Below are positions 2,427-9,124 of a stretch of DNA of 16,932 nt, in pieces. The translations under genes and the position numbers were made by a program. The notes under the pieces were generated by a model. The model was not told the origin of the DNA. It searched no databases and saw only the letters and a list, made by a program, of their open reading frames with translations. The stretch is from Chitinophagaceae bacterium UBA3961 (GTDB lineage: Bacteria; Bacteroidota; Bacteroidia; Chitinophagales; Chitinophagaceae), in NCBI GenBank assembly GCA_002385265.1, contig DGDD01000240.1, positions 1 through 16,932 of the forward strand, given 5' to 3'. Each line of letters starts with the position of its first letter. The first letter of the stretch is position 1.

Positions 2427-2550
2427 TGCAAAAAAGGAATTGAGCGAAGGTACGTTTTGTTCTTCAATAAATTTGGAGCAAATTCGAATGTGGAAATGTG
2501 GATAAAATCATTACTATTGTATTAGAATTAATGACTTACGAATTTTTTTC

Positions 2551-2583
2551 CCGTGAAACATAGTTCTGTATTGGTTTTCACGG
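2551..2583. repeat. Inverted repeat, 8-bp perfect arms
   Basis: CCGTGAAA (2551-2558) and TTTCACGG (2576-2583) are perfect reverse complements around a 17-base centre. The T-run lies before the structure on the plus strand and becomes an A-run after it on the minus strand, so it is not an intrinsic terminator either way. It lies about 125 bases upstream of the dihydroorotase-like start and could be an operator for that gene. No regulator is known for it. Confidence 0.4.
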
Positions 2584-2708
2584 AACGATCAAAATAAGAG
2601 ATTCTATTTATTATTCACATCGCACTAAATCGAGCGAAATATTAAGTTTAAATTCTTTGTTTTCAAGAGATTAAAGGTTTCCTAGATACTAGGGGCCGCT
2701 ATTATTCC

Positions 2709-2721
2709 GTTACTACTATAG
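2709..2721 (+). repeat. First copy of a repeated GTTACTA(T)CTATAG motif
   Basis: GTTACTACTATAG here recurs as GTTACTATCTATAG at 2874-2887 with a single inserted T. The heptamer GTTACTA occurs a third time at 2987-2993. The related heptamer TACTAGG occurs at 2687-2693, 2728-2734 and 2989-2995. A binding site for a capsule regulator is possible; no protein is identified. Confidence 0.4.
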
Positions 2722-2831
2722 GAATACTACTAGGTGTTTTTAATTGTATTACCGGAATTGTTCTTGTTAAAGCGTTGAAACAGAAAAAACTGTAGGGTGT
2801 AAACTATTCTCCAAAATTTAAAATGGGGGGC

Positions 2832-2862
2832 TTGCACTTTCGGGAAATGGATAGTAACTTTA
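2832..2862 (+). promoter_or_regulatory. Predicted Bacteroidota-type promoter of the polysaccharide operon
   Basis: TTG at 2832-2834 and TAACTTTA at 2855-2862 are 20 bases apart. This matches the Bacteroidota housekeeping consensus TTTG-N19-TAnnTTTG at all but the final base of the second box. Transcription would start near 2869 and run into the antiterminator gene at 3140. It is the best match in the intergenic region, it points the right way, and its -7 box lies inside the left arm of a perfect dyad. Confidence 0.55.
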
Positions 2863-2882
2863 CGTTCCTATTGGTTACTATC
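2850..2882. promoter_or_regulatory. Perfect 9-bp dyad overlapping the promoter (possible operator or 5'-end hairpin)
   Basis: GATAGTAAC (2850-2858) and GTTACTATC (2874-2882) are exact reverse complements separated by 15 bases, with centres 24 bases apart. The left arm covers the start of the predicted -7 box and the right arm lies just after the predicted start site. A dimeric repressor bound here would block the promoter. The right arm also belongs to the GTTACTA(T)CTATAG repeat, whose other copy is about 165 bases upstream. Confidence 0.5.
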
Positions 2883-3073
2883 TATAGTTAAATGTGCTAA
2901 CAAACTTCAATTACCCTGTTCCACAAATCCTGTTAAGAACCCATAGTACAATAGTTTTTGGTTAAGTGCTAACAGAATAAGTAGCTGTTACTAGGTAAAT
3001 TATGTGCCTACTATACTAAACGGTGAAAATCCGTGTTTTAATAGTGGCCCCCTTTATATCGTTGATCGGGAAA

Positions 3074-3105
3074 CTCTGGCTCTTGATGTGACAGGGAGTA
3101 GCGAA
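3074..3105 (+). promoter_or_regulatory. JUMPStart/ops-like element before the UpxY/RfaH-family gene
   Basis: In order the sequence has CTCTGG (3074-3079), 12 bases, CAGGG (3092-3096) and GTAGCG (3098-3103). The enterobacterial JUMPStart element, as I recall it, has CTCTGG, 12 bases, CAGGGG, then CGGTAGCG. The first two blocks have identical spacing and the last lies two bases closer here. Against the 12-base ops signal bound by RfaH, 3094-3105 matches at 8 positions, including the central GTAGCG. CTCTG and CAGGG can pair in a 5-bp hairpin with one G-U, as in JUMPStart. The element lies inside the predicted leader, 34 bases before the start codon of an RfaH/NusG-family protein that could bind it. 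The comparison is from memory; binding is inferred. Confidence 0.5.
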
Positions 3106-3139
3106 GCTCTGCGGTGTTAGGGAAATCAAACAGAAAGCT

Positions 3140-3634
3140 ATGAACTGGAATGTTGTTTATACCAGACCTTGTTGGGAAAAAAAGGTGTCGAAACTATTAG
3201 ACATTAAGGGCATTGAGAATTACTGCCCAATGCAGAAAAAGGTTCGTCAATGGAGCGACCGAAAGAAAATCATCTACGATCCATTATTCAAATCCTATGT
3301 ATTTGTTCGAATTGATCAAAAGCAGCGTAATGAGCTCTTTAACACCGATGGCGTGTTGAAATTGGTTCAGTTTGAAGGGAGAGCCGCAGTTTTAACCGAA
3401 GAGGAGATTATACAGGTTAAAACGTTTGTTGAAGCATACAAAGATATATCGGTTCAACAAATTGATTTTGAGATAGCGGATACAGTTAGAATCAAAAGCG
3501 GACCGTTTAACGACAAAACCGGAAAAGTTATCCAGATCAAGAAAAACACTGTAAAGATATTGTTACCAACACTTGGATTCACATTGGTAGCTGAAATTGA
3601 AAAACAACAATTAGAAAAATTAGCAACAGCATAA
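3140..3634 (+). CDS. UpxY/RfaH-like NusG paralog, transcription antiterminator of the polysaccharide locus
   Basis: A 164-residue protein with an N-terminal NGN domain (about 1-98: NWNVVYTRPCWEKKVSKLL, ENYCPMQKKVRQWSDRKK, PLFKSYVFVRID) and a C-terminal KOW domain (about 113-150, around IKSGPFNDKTGKV). Specialised NusG paralogs of this size, UpxY in Bacteroides and RfaH in enterobacteria, ride on RNA polymerase and let it read through terminators in long polysaccharide operons after loading at a leader site. Being the first gene of such a locus, behind a leader of about 270 bases, fits UpxY closely. The loading site may be the JUMPStart-like element just upstream, and a possible target is the hairpin at 9131-9164. 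The start is the only sensible one, since it begins exactly at the conserved NGN edge. The general factor NusG would be encoded elsewhere. Confidence 0.9.
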   Translation: MNWNVVYTRPCWEKKVSKLLDIKGIENYCPMQKKVRQWSDRKKIIYDPLFKSYVFVRIDQKQRNELFNTDGVLKLVQFEGRAAVLTEEEIIQVKTFVEAYKDISVQQIDFEIADTVRIKSGPFNDKTGKVIQIKKNTVKILLPTLGFTLVAEIEKQQLEKLATA

Positions 3635-3679: not shown

Positions 3680-4966
3680 ATGAAAAAGTATAAAATCGCA
3701 GTCATTGGACTTGGCTATGTAGGCTTACCTCTTGCAATTGAATTTGCTAAAAAGTATCCAACTATTGGGTTTGATATCAACAAACGTAGAATTGGCGAAT
3801 TGAGAGAAGGTAAGGATGTTACATTGGAAGTTGAAGACAGACAATTGTTAGAAGTAAACAAAGCTTCTAATGACGACAACAATGGTTTCTTTGTAACTGA
3901 TCAATTAGATGAATTGAAAACGGCTAACTTCTTTATAGTTACAGTTCCTACACCGGTTGACAAACATAACAAGCCTGATTTAACTCCATTATACAAAGCG
4001 AGCGAGACTGTAGGTAAAGTTTTGAAAGCGGGTGATATTGTGGTATATGAAAGTACGGTTTACCCCGGAGTAACGGAAGATGAGTGCGTTCCTGTATTGG
4101 AACGTGTATCGGGTCTCAAATTCAACAAAGATTTCTTTGCAGGATATTCACCTGAGCGCATTAACCCAGGAGACAAAGAACATACTGTTACTAAAATCAA
4201 GAAAGTTACATCCGGTTCTACTCCAGAAATTGGAAAAGAAGTAAACGATGTTTACTCAAGCATTATCGTTGCCGGAACACATTTGGCAACTACTATTAAA
4301 GTAGCGGAAGCAGCAAAAGTAATTGAGAATGCCCAGCGCGATATCAACATTGCTTTTATTAATGAATTGGCTAAAATATTCAACGCATTGAATATTGATA
4401 CAAACGAAGTATTGGCTGCGGCAGGTACTAAATGGAACTTCCTTCCATTTAAACCAGGCTTAGTTGGTGGTCACTGTATTGGTGTAGATCCATATTACCT
4501 AGCCCAGAAAGCTATGGAAGTAGGCTATCACCCGGAGATCATTTTGGCAGGTCGACGTTTAAATGATGGTATGGGAGCCTATGTTGCAAGCGAGGTAGTG
4601 AAATTGATGATTAAAAAGGGAATTCAGGTAACGAATAGTAAGATTTTGATCATGGGCTTTACTTTTAAAGAGAATTGTCCGGATGTTCGTAATACAAAGG
4701 TGATCGACATTATTACTGCACTAAAAGAATACAACCTCAGTTTGGATATTGTAGACCCTTGGGCTAACCCAGACGAAGTTGAGCATGAATATGGAATTCG
4801 CACCATTCAAAAATTGGATGACGGTGCAGCTTACGATGCAATTGTTGTAACAGTAGCGCACAAAGAATTTAATTCAGCAATGGTGAAACATCATAGAAAG
4901 GCACACAGCGTTGTGTTCGATGTGAAATCGATCATGGAAAAAGAAATCGTTGACGCTCGTTTATAA
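3680..4966 (+). CDS. tviB: UDP-HexNAc 6-dehydrogenase, TviB/WbpO type (UDP-GalNAcA synthesis)
   Basis: A 428-residue NAD-dependent nucleotide-sugar dehydrogenase that oxidises C6 of a UDP-N-acetylhexosamine to the uronic acid in the cytoplasm. The Rossmann motif is G10-LG-YV-G15. ESTVYPG follows at 124-130, [12 protein letters not shown] at 154-165, and the catalytic cysteine is C266 in [15 protein letters not shown]. The C-terminal UDP-binding domain holds [16 protein letters not shown]. Length and the text [19 protein letters not shown] fit the TviB/VipA/WbpO branch, which acts on UDP-GlcNAc or UDP-GalNAc, rather than UDP-glucose dehydrogenase. The next gene, 12 bases on, is the epimerase that accompanies this enzyme in Vi-antigen and O6 loci, so UDP-GalNAcA is the likely product. 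Substrate is inferred from the branch and the neighbour; UDP-ManNAcA is the main alternative. Confidence 0.88.
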
Positions 4967-4978
4967 ACCGTACACAAT

Positions 4979-5980
4979 ATGTATACTACACAGTTTCACA
5001 ATAAAGACATTAGTAATTCTAGCTTTTTGGTTTCCGGTGGTGCCGGATTCATTGGATCAAACATCGTTGAATACTTGATTCGGTATGGCGCAGGTAAAGT
5101 TAGAGTGCTGGATAATTTCGCTACCGGCTCGCTCGATAATATAAAAACTTACATGTCACTTCCGAATTTTGAATTGATGGAAGGTGATATTCGTGACTTT
5201 GCTACTTGTCAGAAAGCGGTTGAGGGAATGGATTATGTTTCACATCAGGCTGCCCTTGGTTCTGTTCCTCGTTCAATTGCCGATCCAATTACAAGTAATG
5301 ATGTGAACGTAAGTGGTTTCTTGAACATGCTTACAGCGGCGCGAGATGCAGGTGTAAAGCGAATGGTATATGCTGCCAGTTCTAGCACCTATGGTGATCA
5401 TCCCGGCTTGCCCAAATTTGAAGACAGGATTGGGAATCCTCTTTCGCCTTATGCGGTAACAAAGTATGTAAATGAGTTGTATGCGAATGTATATTCAAAG
5501 ACTTACGACTTCCATACCATTGGGCTGCGCTATTTCAATGTGTTTGGCCCAAGGCAGAATCCTAGAGGCCCTTATGCGGCAGTTATACCGTTATTTGTAG
5601 AGTCGGCATTGAAAAATGAGGCCCCCTTTATTAATGGTGATGGTTTAACAAGCCGAGATTTTACATTTGTTGAAAATGCTGTTCAGGCTAATATCAAATC
5701 GTTAATAAATTCTGAAATCACTAAACACGAGGTGTGTAATATTGCGGTTGGTGAATCTAATAACTTGAATCAACTATGGGGTTATATTAGTGAGATCCTT
5801 GGTGTTTCGAAGCCTCCTCAATACCGTGAAGAACGCAAAGGCGATGTTAAGCATAGCCTAGCCGATATCAGTAAAGCCAATAATTTAATTGGATATCAAC
5901 CTGCTGTTAAGATGCGTCAAGGTCTTGAAGTTACGGTTCAATGGTATCAACAACAAGCTCAATCACCTATTGCCAAATAA
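4979..5980 (+). CDS. tviC: NAD-dependent UDP-HexNAc(A) 4-epimerase, TviC/WbpP type
   Basis: A 333-residue extended short-chain dehydrogenase/reductase. The nucleotide-binding glycine motif is G20-G21-AG-FI-G26 in SGGAGFIGSN. The catalytic triad is visible as SSS at 134-136, Y158 and K162 (SPYAVTKY). The substrate-binding region reads LRYFNVFGPRQNPRGPYAAVIP. The short lead-in before the glycine motif (FHNKDISNSSFLVSGG) and the overall text match the WbpP/TviC/VipB group, which interconverts UDP-GlcNAc and UDP-GalNAc or their uronic acids. Paired with the dehydrogenase just upstream it would supply UDP-GalNAcA for the repeat unit. No residue needed for catalysis appears to be missing. Related enzymes also epimerise non-acetylated sugars, so the exact substrate is an inference from the pair. 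Confidence 0.88.
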   Translation: MYTTQFHNKDISNSSFLVSGGAGFIGSNIVEYLIRYGAGKVRVLDNFATGSLDNIKTYMSLPNFELMEGDIRDFATCQKAVEGMDYVSHQAALGSVPRSIADPITSNDVNVSGFLNMLTAARDAGVKRMVYAASSSTYGDHPGLPKFEDRIGNPLSPYAVTKYVNELYANVYSKTYDFHTIGLRYFNVFGPRQNPRGPYAAVIPLFVESALKNEAPFINGDGLTSRDFTFVENAVQANIKSLINSEITKHEVCNIAVGESNNLNQLWGYISEILGVSKPPQYREERKGDVKHSLADISKANNLIGYQPAVKMRQGLEVTVQWYQQQAQSPIAK

Positions 5981-5998
5981 CCCATACAAATTGATCAT

Positions 5999-6781
5999 AT
6001 GAACATTAAACTGTGGAGAAACAACTTGTTTGTCTTAATTCTAGGAATTTTCGGTTTAACAGTTGCTTTTAGTTCTTGTACCAATGTGAAAAAACTTCAT
6101 TATTTCACAGATTTACCGGAGACTACACTAGATACATTACCTATTCTGCAACAAGAGGAGCGAATTATTGAAGCCGGTGATGAAATTGAAATTTTTCTGA
6201 GTACGCCCGACACAGGGGTTATCGGCCCTTTTCTTAAGTTGCCTGCCAACCCTTCTACTGGTGGCGTATCAGTGTATAAAGTAAATCCTGATGGAAGAAT
6301 TGAAATGTCTGGTATTGGAAGTATTCCAGCTTCCGGCTCTACAACAGCCGAGCTTAAGAAAAAGATATCGAACGCACTTTCTCCTTTTATTAATGTTAAG
6401 AAATTATTGATCGAAGTAAAGTTTACGACATTTAAAGTGACGATGATGGGAGAAGTAAGATCTCCGGGAACAGTAAACCTGCCCATCTCGAAAAACACCA
6501 TTCTCCACGCATTGGCTGCAGCAGGCGACCTTCCTTCTACCGCGATGCGTTATGACATAAAGCTCTTCCGTGAATACAATGGAAAGAGAACTGTTAGAAC
6601 TATTGACTTGAGAAGTAAAGAAGTATTGACCAATCCGGATATCTATTTACTGAAACCCAATGATGTAATATATGTGAAGTTGAGAAAAGCTTCTGTGTTC
6701 AAAGAAGATCTCACAATCTATACAACCATTTTCACTATTGTAGTATCAGGTGTTTCACTTGGACTCGCGTTAACAAGATAA
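5999..6781 (+). CDS. Polysaccharide export outer-membrane lipoprotein (Wza/BexD-like)
   Basis: A 260-residue protein with a lipoprotein signal: positive NIKLWRN, hydrophobic FVLILGIFGLTVAF, and a lipobox FSSC with cysteine 27 as the predicted lipidated residue. Next comes a poly_export domain (about 50-140; EAGDEIEIFLSTPD and KVNPDGRIEMSGIG). An SLBB-like domain follows (about 145-210; FKVTMMGEVRSPGTVNLP, ILHALAAAGDLP), then PNDVIYV. It ends in a hydrophobic helix (about 237-257), the position where Wza forms its outer-membrane barrel. It would form the channel through which polymer leaves the cell, docked onto the co-polymerase encoded 21 bases downstream. It is shorter than E. coli Wza, with a single SLBB-like repeat, as is usual in Bacteroidota. 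The lipobox has phenylalanine at -3, slightly off consensus. Confidence 0.9.
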   Translation: MNIKLWRNNLFVLILGIFGLTVAFSSCTNVKKLHYFTDLPETTLDTLPILQQEERIIEAGDEIEIFLSTPDTGVIGPFLKLPANPSTGGVSVYKVNPDGRIEMSGIGSIPASGSTTAELKKKISNALSPFINVKKLLIEVKFTTFKVTMMGEVRSPGTVNLPISKNTILHALAAAGDLPSTAMRYDIKLFREYNGKRTVRTIDLRSKEVLTNPDIYLLKPNDVIYVKLRKASVFKEDLTIYTTIFTIVVSGVSLGLALTR

Positions 6782-6802
6782 TAACCCGTATATATTAAAG
6801 CT

Positions 6803-9124
6803 ATGGAAGAAAAAGAATTGAGTACCGGATTTGACATTTCAAGATTGTTTAGAAGGATTCTAAGCAATTATTTCTGGTTTTTGTTTACCATTCCGGTATT
6901 GGTAGGAGGCGCCTATTTATACCTTAAATACTCGGTGCCACTTTTCCAAGTAGTTTCCTACTTGCAAATACAACCACCCAATGAAGGTCAGAGTTTAATT
7001 GGTGGATCGCCTTTCTCTTCTTCAGGGCAGCAAGCGAACAACTTGCCCGACATGAATGGAGAAGTCTTTAAACTTCAATCTACAGCTTTATTTGAGCAAG
7101 TAGTGGATTCACTTCGATTAGACATTGAGGTATCAGCCAAAGGTAAAGTAAAGAATCAACCCATGCAGGTAGACTCGCTTCCCTTTGTAATTACTACCAA
7201 AAGAACCAATGTTCATCAATCAAGTGAAGTTTTCGATTTGCGTTTGAATAAGTCCGGATTTGAATTGGTGAGTTCCAATAAGAAAATTTCCGGGATATAC
7301 GACAAGCCCTTCGTTATTAATGGCGACTCTGTTTTGTTCCAATTAAGCGATTCTGCTGCAATTGGCCAAGCATACACCTTCCAATTGAAATCGAAGAAGG
7401 AAAAAGCTGCTGAGATTCTCGGTCGATTCACTGTAGGGCCTGTTCCTAAAGGTGGAAGTGGAATGTTGCAATTAACGTTGAAAGACGAAATAACTTCAAG
7501 AGCAAAAATGATTATTGAAGTTCTCATCGATAAATACGATGGTGCAAACCAAGACTTCAAAACGAAAAGCTTAAAAAGTGAAATGGCATTTCTCGACAAT
7601 CGATTAAATGCCGTTGCTCGTGAATTAGAGACTCAGGAAAATACCGTGCGTGATTTCAAAGCAAGTAATAAAATCAATAACGTGTCAGCCTCAGCTGATC
7701 AATTACTGACCAGCTTAACGGATATTGACAAGCAAAAGAATGACAATAAGTATAAAGAGACACTTCTGTCAAATATTGAGAACTACATTCGTAATCGTCC
7801 GGATGAAAAGATACAAGTAGCAGGTGTGCAAGATGGTGAACTACTTGGGCTGGTTTCTGCCTACAACGGGAAACTCACCGAAAGAGCTTCAGTATTAGCA
7901 TATGGTGCAGCGCAAGACCTTCGCTTGCCTCCGATAAATACAAAAATTGAAGACTTAAAGCGCTCCATTGAAAATCGTATCAATAGCTTGAGAGAGGAGT
8001 TAGGTACTAGCAATTCATATCTAGCCGAAAGAGAACGTTCTACAAACTCTCGCTTTGTAACATTACCTGAGAAAGAAAAGAATTACATTGAAGTAAACCG
8101 ATTGTTAAATGTTAAGCAAACACTTTACGTATTCTTACTTCAAAGAAAGGAAGATAAAAATATTGAATTCGCATCTTCGGGATTTGGAGGTTCTAGAATT
8201 GTAGATTGGAAATTTAGCAATATGCGCGAACCAAGACCGCTGTTTATATACGCCGGGGCTTTAGGTGCAGCCATTTTGCTTCCTTTGTTAATCATCGTTA
8301 TTGCTTTCATTTCAAACAGGAAGATTGACAGTTTTGAAGACATTTATAAGTCTACAGCAATGCCGGTAGCGGGCGAGATTTCATATTTGCCAAAGAATAA
8401 AGAGAATATTGTTATTACTGAAGATAATGTAAGTGCTGTTGCAGAGCAATTCAGAACATTAAGAACTAATTTCTTCTATTTAAGCAAGCAACTTGCTAAT
8501 AAAGTGGTAATGGTTACCTCCAGTATTAGTGGTGAAGGAAAGAGTTTTGTGAGCTTGAATTTGGGAAACAGCATTGCTATTTCCGGCAAGAAAATCGTGC
8601 TACTTGAGTTTGACTTGAGAAACCCGACGTTGAGCGATAAAGTTAATCTTGAAAATAAAGTTGGAATACATAACTATTTGTCTGGTGAAGTTTCCATTGA
8701 AGAGATTGTAAATCCGGTAGAAGGGTATCCCAACTTATATTTTATCAGTGCAGGAACTCCTTTAACACCAAATCCGGGTGAAATAATTTTAAGCAACAAG
8801 ATGCCAACAATGTTTGAGTATCTGAGAGCCAATTTTGACTACATTATTTTAGACACCCCACCAATTGAAGCGGTATCGGATTCGCTAACGATGTCGAAAT
8901 ATGTAGATAGCACCTTCTACATCGTACGTCATAAGTACTCCAATAAATCTTCACTTACGTTGATCAATCAATTGTATAAGGATAAAAAGCTACCAAATCC
9001 AGTGTTGGTAATCAATGGTATTAAAGCCGGGGATGGATACAGAAATGCCTATGGATACGGGTATGGGCAGAAGGCGAAGATTAAGAAGAAGAAAGGATTT
9101 TTAAGAATAGCATCAATATTTTAA
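6803..9124 (+). CDS. Wzc-like polysaccharide co-polymerase with BY-kinase domain
   Basis: A 773-residue inner-membrane protein joining a Wzz chain-length domain to a bacterial tyrosine kinase. The first membrane helix is near 22-41 (YFWFLFTIPVLVGGAYLY). A long periplasmic part with coiled-coil stretches (about 250-450) follows, then a second helix near 478-506. The cytoplasmic kinase has Walker A SGEGKS (576-581), Walker A' LLEFDLR (600-606, glutamate at the place of the more usual first aspartate, which I recall as common in this phylum) and Walker B ILDTPP (682-687). The C-terminal tail carries four tyrosines (746, 750, 752, 754) in YRNAYGYGYG, the expected autophosphorylation cluster, then a lysine-rich stretch. 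Cycles of phosphorylation of this tail set polymer length and export with the Wza-like partner just upstream. A strong hairpin follows the stop codon. Confidence 0.92.
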   Translation: MEEKELSTGFDISRLFRRILSNYFWFLFTIPVLVGGAYLYLKYSVPLFQVVSYLQIQPPNEGQSLIGGSPFSSSGQQANNLPDMNGEVFKLQSTALFEQVVDSLRLDIEVSAKGKVKNQPMQVDSLPFVITTKRTNVHQSSEVFDLRLNKSGFELVSSNKKISGIYDKPFVINGDSVLFQLSDSAAIGQAYTFQLKSKKEKAAEILGRFTVGPVPKGGSGMLQLTLKDEITSRAKMIIEVLIDKYDGANQDFKTKSLKSEMAFLDNRLNAVARELETQENTVRDFKASNKINNVSASADQLLTSLTDIDKQKNDNKYKETLLSNIENYIRNRPDEKIQVAGVQDGELLGLVSAYNGKLTERASVLAYGAAQDLRLPPINTKIEDLKRSIENRINSLREELGTSNSYLAERERSTNSRFVTLPEKEKNYIEVNRLLNVKQTLYVFLLQRKEDKNIEFASSGFGGSRIVDWKFSNMREPRPLFIYAGALGAAILLPLLIIVIAFISNRKIDSFEDIYKSTAMPVAGEISYLPKNKENIVITEDNVSAVAEQFRTLRTNFFYLSKQLANKVVMVTSSISGEGKSFVSLNLGNSIAISGKKIVLLEFDLRNPTLSDKVNLENKVGIHNYLSGEVSIEEIVNPVEGYPNLYFISAGTPLTPNPGEIILSNKMPTMFEYLRANFDYIILDTPPIEAVSDSLTMSKYVDSTFYIVRHKYSNKSSLTLINQLYKDKKLPNPVLVINGIKAGDGYRNAYGYGYGQKAKIKKKKGFLRIASIF

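Follow-up and report, generated by a model that had tools for sequence, protein, structure and literature searches.

What in the leader of a UpxY-led polysaccharide operon could bring UpxY to RNA polymerase? A passage of a 2020 paper says that it was unknown how UpxY and other operon-borne paralogs are recruited (PMC7593976), and RfaH is called the only well-studied NusG paralog in a passage that leaves open whether other paralogs have similar mechanisms (PMC12691694). The question is raised by a stretch of 16,932 nucleotides from Chitinophagaceae bacterium UBA3961 (the whole of which is called the window here), in which a upxY-family gene apparently leads such an operon, the operon structure being taken from gene orientation:

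3140..3634, + strand: gene of a upxY-family NusG paralog of 164 aa (NF033644 match; modelled with an NGN and a beta-type KOW domain)
3680..9124, + strand: genes of a UDP-sugar dehydrogenase, an epimerase, a Poly_export/SLBB protein and an AAA_31 protein (Pfam, ORFs), the first genes of the presumed controlled operon

Same-strand ORFs extend beyond the AAA_31 gene, whose product may be Wzc-like, to 16847. The window UpxY scored 132.1 bits against NF033644, above the curated cut-off of 100, and 59 bits against the RfaH model TIGR01955, below its cut-off of 144.5. A fold search with its model (mean pLDDT 82.5, pTM 0.65) placed NusG (6e-13) ahead of RfaH (7e-9), and as a single query against the PDB the protein matched NusG and not RfaH; a profile of 22 UpxYs had RfaH as its top PDB match (1.9e-14).

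A preliminary description had placed CTCTGG, CAGGG and GTAGCG blocks upstream of the NusG-paralog gene and likened them to JUMPStart and ops. Letters, spacing and coordinates are all confirmed: CTCTGG occupies 3074-3079, CAGGG follows after 12 bases at 3092-3096, then come an A and GTAGCG (3098-3103), and the ATG stands at 3140. These blocks were picked after the fact; CTCTGG-N12-CAGGG has one exact occurrence in the window (allowing up to 2 mismatches gives 4 matches, where 1.36 would be expected) and, with GTAGCG, has its sole exact match in the 4.12-Mb genome here. That one occurrence speaks for an enterobacterial-type JUMPStart/ops element, but CTCTGG lies near the conserved core described below in only 2 of 112 sites, so that the JUMPStart-like blocks look coincidental, and the JUMPstart family RF01707 was absent among the matches of an Rfam search of the window; we have rejected this reading as barely conceivable. 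CTCTGG-N10-14-CAGGG was found in 1 of the 112 sites, the window itself, the base-by-base match to ops (8/12) proved to be in a different register from the conserved hairpin, and the genome belongs with Chitinophagaceae, not with Flavobacteriales as had been supposed.

What is conserved is an element at 3087-3111, which overlaps the CTCTGG/CAGGG blocks and starts 13 bases downstream of their start. Its consensus is TGTGACTGA-N3-5-[G/A]-GCGNAGC-YN-TG, and in the window it has the following parts, with a single C between the last two:

3087..3092, + strand: TGTGAC, the upstream box, predicted to lie in the upstream duplex at -24 to -19 from the predicted pause (column information, half-site test)
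3093..3099, + strand: AGGGAGT, a spacer of 7 bases, 8 nt with A3100; relatives mostly have 7-9 nt from box to core (site alignment)
3100..3108, + strand: A-GC-GAA-GC-T, a predicted non-template DNA hairpin of three pairs plus a sheared G.A, with a one-base loop (6-mer counts, outer pair)
3110..3111, + strand: T-G, the predicted pause (-1/+1), with the first G of the core (3101) at -10 (site alignment)

A 660-nt gap (window 2427-3086) precedes the element, and no TAnnTTTG-type promoter box was found in window 2601-3140. Scored with a matrix built from 97 other sites, the window itself being excluded, the element reached 22.4 bits, the next-best place in the window 5.3 bits, and none of 60 shuffled windows attained the same score (best 20.2, mean 7.1).

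Conservation and strand were assessed in 137 leaders, 134 of them from the family of the window including the window itself, of which 132 remained when two truncated ones were dropped; the set covers nearly all family places over the cut-off, with at least G102:C1:3128984 left out and the sub-cut-off L173-L176 taken in. Counting of 6-mers with no preset motif ranked GCGAAG (72 leaders) and CGAAGC (70 leaders) first, each being present in 3 on the other strand; ACTGAG and TGTGAC were both within the top ten. The pattern TG[TG][GA][AG][CGT]-N6-10-GCGNAGC was present within 650 nt before upxY in 86 of the 132 leaders on the coding strand and in none on the other strand, while 20 shuffles gave a mean of 0.4 and a maximum of 2. 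When the core was ignored and only the half-site TG[TG][GA]A[CG]TGA was sought in 206 leaders, the core followed in 74 of 80 cases on the + strand and in 0 of 8 on the - strand. The upstream box has columns of 1.1-2.0 bits in 98 sites, which were chosen partly on the box, and the six bases 5' of it have at most 0.25 bit. The earlier proposal is supported to this extent: the UpxY leader of the window has an ops-type element that is specific to one strand and conserved across many lineages. One leader (L107) has two copies 41 nt apart before a single upxY, both near the TGTGACAGGG...AGCGAAGCT type of the window.

Variation within the core was tabulated for 105 unique sites, family and class together. 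GCG and AGC were fixed by the search pattern in this table, and their constancy therefore rests on the 6-mer counts and the half-site test. The loop base is A in 74, G in 20, T in 3 and C in 1, and 7 sites have a loop of two bases (AT in 4 of them); at the outer pair there is G:C in 43, G:T in 37, A:T in 20 and something else in 5, and never A:C; the third base after AGC is T in 93, and it is followed by G in 54 and by A in 29. Of 98 one-base-loop sites, 95 have the outer pair formed, a number that 1 of 2000 shuffles equalled. Several column pairs that are not expected to pair also show excess mutual information in these 98 sites, so relatedness among the sites counts, and with relatedness counted there were 6 independent contrasts for covariation of the outer pair, about 3 as expected and none opposed (p 0.25). 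DNA folding energy gave -0.6 kcal/mol for the window core, equal for other loops, and so did not single out its loop; the common core form TGGCGAAGCTG was predicted to be unfolded.

From these comparisons we consider it likely that 3087-3111 is a UpxY loading site, predicted to consist of a non-template hairpin and an upstream duplex box, with the reader gene starting 29 bases further on. In transcribing the leader, RNA polymerase would pause at T3110/G3111, and in the open bubble the non-template strand could fold into the mini-hairpin A-GC-GAA-GC-T, which is ops-like with one loop base fewer. UpxY would then dock on this mini-hairpin and on the upstream duplex box TGTGAC and, remaining on the polymerase, would suppress premature termination along the long operon, its own gene first. 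This proposal is based on what was observed of the element, namely its conservation, its strand and placement, its pause-like flanks and the way it occurs together with UpxY; pausing, folding of the DNA hairpin, UpxY contacts and antitermination at the element are what we infer.

For co-occurrence we used a strict form, TGTGACTGA-N4-6-GCGNAGC, which the copy in the window itself falls outside. Of 117 genomes of the family 60 have it, and of 396 of the class 49; a reversed-pattern control gave 0 matches in both sets. In the family, 59 of 98 genomes with UpxY have it, compared to 1 of 19 without (p 6e-6), the exception (G032) having its strict site before an integrase gene. In 169 class genomes (G332-G500), where UpxY presence was called at E 1e-28, it is present in 15 of 49 with UpxY and in 0 of 120 without (p 1.5e-9). 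These figures bear on the suggestion that the element is a conserved pause site lacking a sequence-specific reader, UpxY binding through the polymerase only. It does contain the elemental-pause letters G-10, T-1 and G+1, but the conservation of GCG.AGC and TGTGAC exceeds what a pause generally needs, and the element is nearly absent from genomes without UpxY; we regard a bare pause site as highly improbable and keep to the loading site.

Beyond the family, inspection of 69 class leaders found the element upstream of upxY in 12 (f28, f92, f95, f102, f103, f108 and, once, f86) and also in f4; downstream of upxY it was present in 13 of 63 loci tested, mainly in f22, f68, f75, f98 and f106, and once in f37, which is of another class. 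The one-base-loop motif is absent from the 650 nt upstream in 46 of the 132 family leaders, and with these class figures it follows that many UpxY genes have no nearby element. In f35, of another class, the 300 nt upstream showed no element to the eye, and a pattern search downstream found none. At least 120 stretches with the element came from a scan in which each species had one genome; most of the 80 titles listed name Bacteroidota (Chitinophaga, Algoriphagus, Mucilaginibacter, Pedobacter, Cyclobacterium, Prolixibacteraceae and others), and a small number are bins that carry the label Neomarinimicrobiota, Kryptoniota, Thermodesulfovibrionia, Nitrospira, Sphingomonadales or simply bacterium. 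Since an ops-type element is conserved in so many lineages, RfaH-like recognition probably extends beyond Proteobacteria, and the preliminary idea that it is wider than thought is borne out to that extent. Three copies, in records labelled Bacterium BMS3Bbin08 (L358), Thermodesulfovibrionia (L386) and Sphingomonadales (L424), precede an APS kinase, a UDP-GlcNAc 2-epimerase and an epimerase gene respectively and may reflect transfer or mis-binning.

Among 121 listed scan sites (120 genomic and 1 viral), 30 lie before and 23 after a upxY within 1.5 kb on the same strand, 5 have a upxY elsewhere in the locus and 63 have none. The viral-contig copy (L468:6537-6560) precedes an ORF with a Cpn10 match (5e-9). 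For 101 of these sites the ORF that follows has the same orientation and for 15 the opposite one, at a median distance of 92 nt, and 107 lie outside any ORF of at least 100 aa. TAnnTTTG promoter-like boxes occur within 300 nt upstream on the coding strand at 50 of 104 sites, compared to 10 of 104 on the other strand.

With such boxes upstream the sites seem to lie in transcribed leaders, as would suit a signal read in the nascent RNA, that is, a leader hairpin to which UpxY binds or which takes part in termination, like the LoaP/dfn hairpin. A passage of PMC12691694 has LoaP using RNA, and the frequent G:T outer pair would also be in keeping with this. There are only three pairs, however, and nothing complementary to the upstream box was noticed; the RNA fold of the window leader is not unusual (z -0.01), no Rfam match fell at the element in the window and four loci tried (weak miRNA-type matches in L422 were far from its site), and relative to a pause-like sequence the core occupies -10 to -4. 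An RNA signal is in our judgement unlikely. Should the element instead be a double-stranded operator for a regulator of initiation, the conserved TGTGAC, of which TGTGA is a CRP/FNR-type half-site, and the position of most sites outside ORFs would be explained, but the consensus has no palindromic partner, the next ORF is mostly on the same strand, promoter-like boxes lie upstream of the element and the element co-occurs with UpxY, making an operator quite improbable.

Returning to the UpxY loading site, its placement bears on whether the reader acts in cis or in trans. A separate site (L002) belongs to the second UpxY of the window genome, and the window site had no other copy that stood out, for which reasons cis action and autogenous control are the simplest reading for the window UpxY. 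When up to 2 mismatches were allowed, further copies in the genome were at chance level (43 matches compared to 54 for controls) and were discarded, as was one look-alike (L331), which lies within an ORF of 801 aa whose product resembles a P-type ATPase. The autogenous control put forward earlier therefore holds for the window and for many relatives, but elsewhere the site lies directly 3' of upxY or far from it.

For the 63 listed sites without upxY, the first ORFs of 49 were scanned (39 + 10). The 39 comprised Poly_export (7), epimerase/Polysacc_synt_2 (4), Wzz (4) and UDP-sugar dehydrogenase (2), the rest being mixed or without match, and the other 10 comprised two sugar epimerases, the rest being other or without match. 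The strict sites that the family and class have apart from upxY are followed by genes for Poly_export, UDP-sugar dehydrogenase, Wzx-type or epimerase proteins, and also by genes for integrases and for nuclease-type, AFOR, glyoxalase and unknown proteins. Ten family UpxYs are encoded 3' of a 450-478-aa ORF (a Peptidase_S41 gene in the one tested, L021) with no site at their own gene. In five of these ten genomes (G016, G128, G078, G111, G084) strict sites stand elsewhere before Poly_export or UDP-sugar dehydrogenase genes, in G011 one stands before an integrase gene, and the strict-form scan found none in the remaining four. G128 and G078 hold a second UpxY of the AT-loop kind, which leaves three clean orphan cases. 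Orphan UpxYs with distant strict sites look like trans-acting, RfaH-like cases.

Several arrangements were seen besides. Four strict copies (L244, L260, L307, L314) lie 26-80 nt before a phage-type tyrosine integrase gene; mobile elements may have inserted at leaders of this kind, or UpxY may control the integrases. G088 has four dispersed copies (L285, L303-L305) with a nearly common 3' flank, CCGTAC.AAATAATA, which gives the leader the look of a repeat, and one UpxY over the cut-off; G090 has six strict sites (L267, L298-L302), also with one UpxY over the cut-off, and its scanned downstream ORFs include Poly_export, methyltransferase, glyoxalase and unknown proteins. In several groups outside the family of the window, a 172-185-aa ORF lies directly upstream of the element, at about -630 to -40 (L270-L273, L275, L278-L280, L284, L289, L293, L294, L296, L297), and two of these ORFs had no match in Pfam.

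On the protein side, S39 of UpxY, in W-S-D-R-x-K, aligns to R40 of RfaH, is at least 90% conserved and lies at an inter-strand turn in the model. The fourth base of the box is G with S39 in 85 of 86 cases and A with S39 in 13 of 18, and T goes with H, N or C at this residue in 5 of 5. This coupling (z 13) is suggestive, but when tree-corrected it is not significant, with 4 supported independent contrasts, and we do not rely upon it. The KOW domain is modelled as beta strands, in agreement with the NusG-like spectrum given for UpbY in a passage of PMC9247905, and RfaH-type autoinhibition is consequently not expected in UpxY.

A wider proposal is that many Bacteroidota outside Bacteroidaceae, with outliers in neighbouring phyla, load UpxY through one ancient GNA mini-hairpin plus TGTGAC box, that the loop base and box set the pairing of UpxY with its site, that orphan UpxYs control scattered polysaccharide operons in trans like RfaH, and that ops and this element are two loop lengths of one DNA fold; for this the balance seems to us to be even. 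The preliminary view that no such recognition site had been described for the phylum was too strong as regards UpxY recognition in Bacteroides, which has already been published, and the element here would be a further variant of that kind of site. Saba et al. in 2024 reportedly had UpxY in Bacteroides recognise a paused polymerase via non-template DNA and the upstream duplex, a design that the two-part element fits, which supports the mechanism and lowers its novelty. One sentence of a paper citing Saba et al. 2024 has UpxY bridging to the upstream DNA duplex. Among the literature matches listed, the sequence of the element, its spread, its correspondence with the ops fold and the trans sites were unreported, which describes those matches and is not a claim of absence from print. 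A passage of a 2024 paper asks whether non-template hairpins with an A, G or C loop recruit other elongation factors (PMC11001881); the natural set of sites has loops of A, G, T, C and AT, often beside likely readers, and makes that question directly testable. The element also gives a sequence rule with which to find polysaccharide operons under UpxY control.

Among known systems, the Bacteroides UpxY/UpxZ pairs share with the window the protein family, the leading position in the operon and, as proposed here by analogy, the leader-dependent antitermination that a passage of a review describes for their capsule control (PMC7819879). They differ in that the second gene of the window operon is by Pfam a UDP-sugar dehydrogenase, not upxZ, and in that the element is almost absent from f86, probably Bacteroidaceae, whose UpxYs score best and in which the relaxed form was found in only 3 of 121 genomes and was absent from 118. 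JUMPStart (RF01707) is similar in that it lies in polysaccharide leaders and contains ops, but its 5' blocks are not conserved at the UpxY element. The oligonucleotide d(GCGNAGC), an unusually stable DNA mini-hairpin, is a heptamer identical to the core of the element, with N free; the DNA energy model that we used did not reproduce this stability for the GCGNAGC core. To our knowledge such mini-hairpins are known as oligonucleotides and aptamer tags and not as a transcription signal.

The closest comparison is with ops and RfaH. According to passages of the papers concerned, the ops hairpin has G2:C9, C3:G8 and a sheared G4:A7 with loop G5-T6, the RfaH beta-hairpin loop, with R40 at its tip, contacts the upstream DNA backbone (PMC11001881, Nat Commun 2024), and the pause-inducing TG of ops is at 11-12 (PMC5995543, eLife 2018). 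The element lacks the 12-nt ops sequence GGCGGTAGCGTG, and in the pause register GCGAAGCTCTG of the window and GCGGTAGCGTG of ops (the latter taken in part from the preliminary description) are identical at 5 of 11 positions; the loop T contacted by RfaH is not matched, the window loop being A. The element further differs from ops in its one-base loop in place of G5-T6 (a minority having two bases, such as AT) and in the extra upstream box TGTGAC, and from RfaH in its predicted reader, a UpxY with KOW modelled as a beta barrel. Five family leaders without the short form (L154, L155, L162, L167, L169) carry AGCGATAGCT, one base off the ops core GCGGTAGC, and their UpxY has R-H-E-K-K in place of the R-W-E-K-K of most family proteins; taken to mark the AT loop, R-H-E-K-K fits these five but was dropped, as L237 has it with a one-base loop. 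The window sequence would allow an ops-type stem of G:C, C:G and sheared G.A. The likenesses are that the GC-G(N)A-GC of the element is GC-G(GT)A-GC of ops minus one loop base; that with T as -1 and G as +1 the first core G stands at -10, where G2 of ops stands; that T-G is present at the predicted pause in the window, as are T and G singly in 93 and 54 of the 105 sites; and that both lie in leaders before polysaccharide operons, with a NusG paralog as the likely reader and apparently some sites in trans. This suggests that UpxY and RfaH share, or have converged on, one recognition fold.
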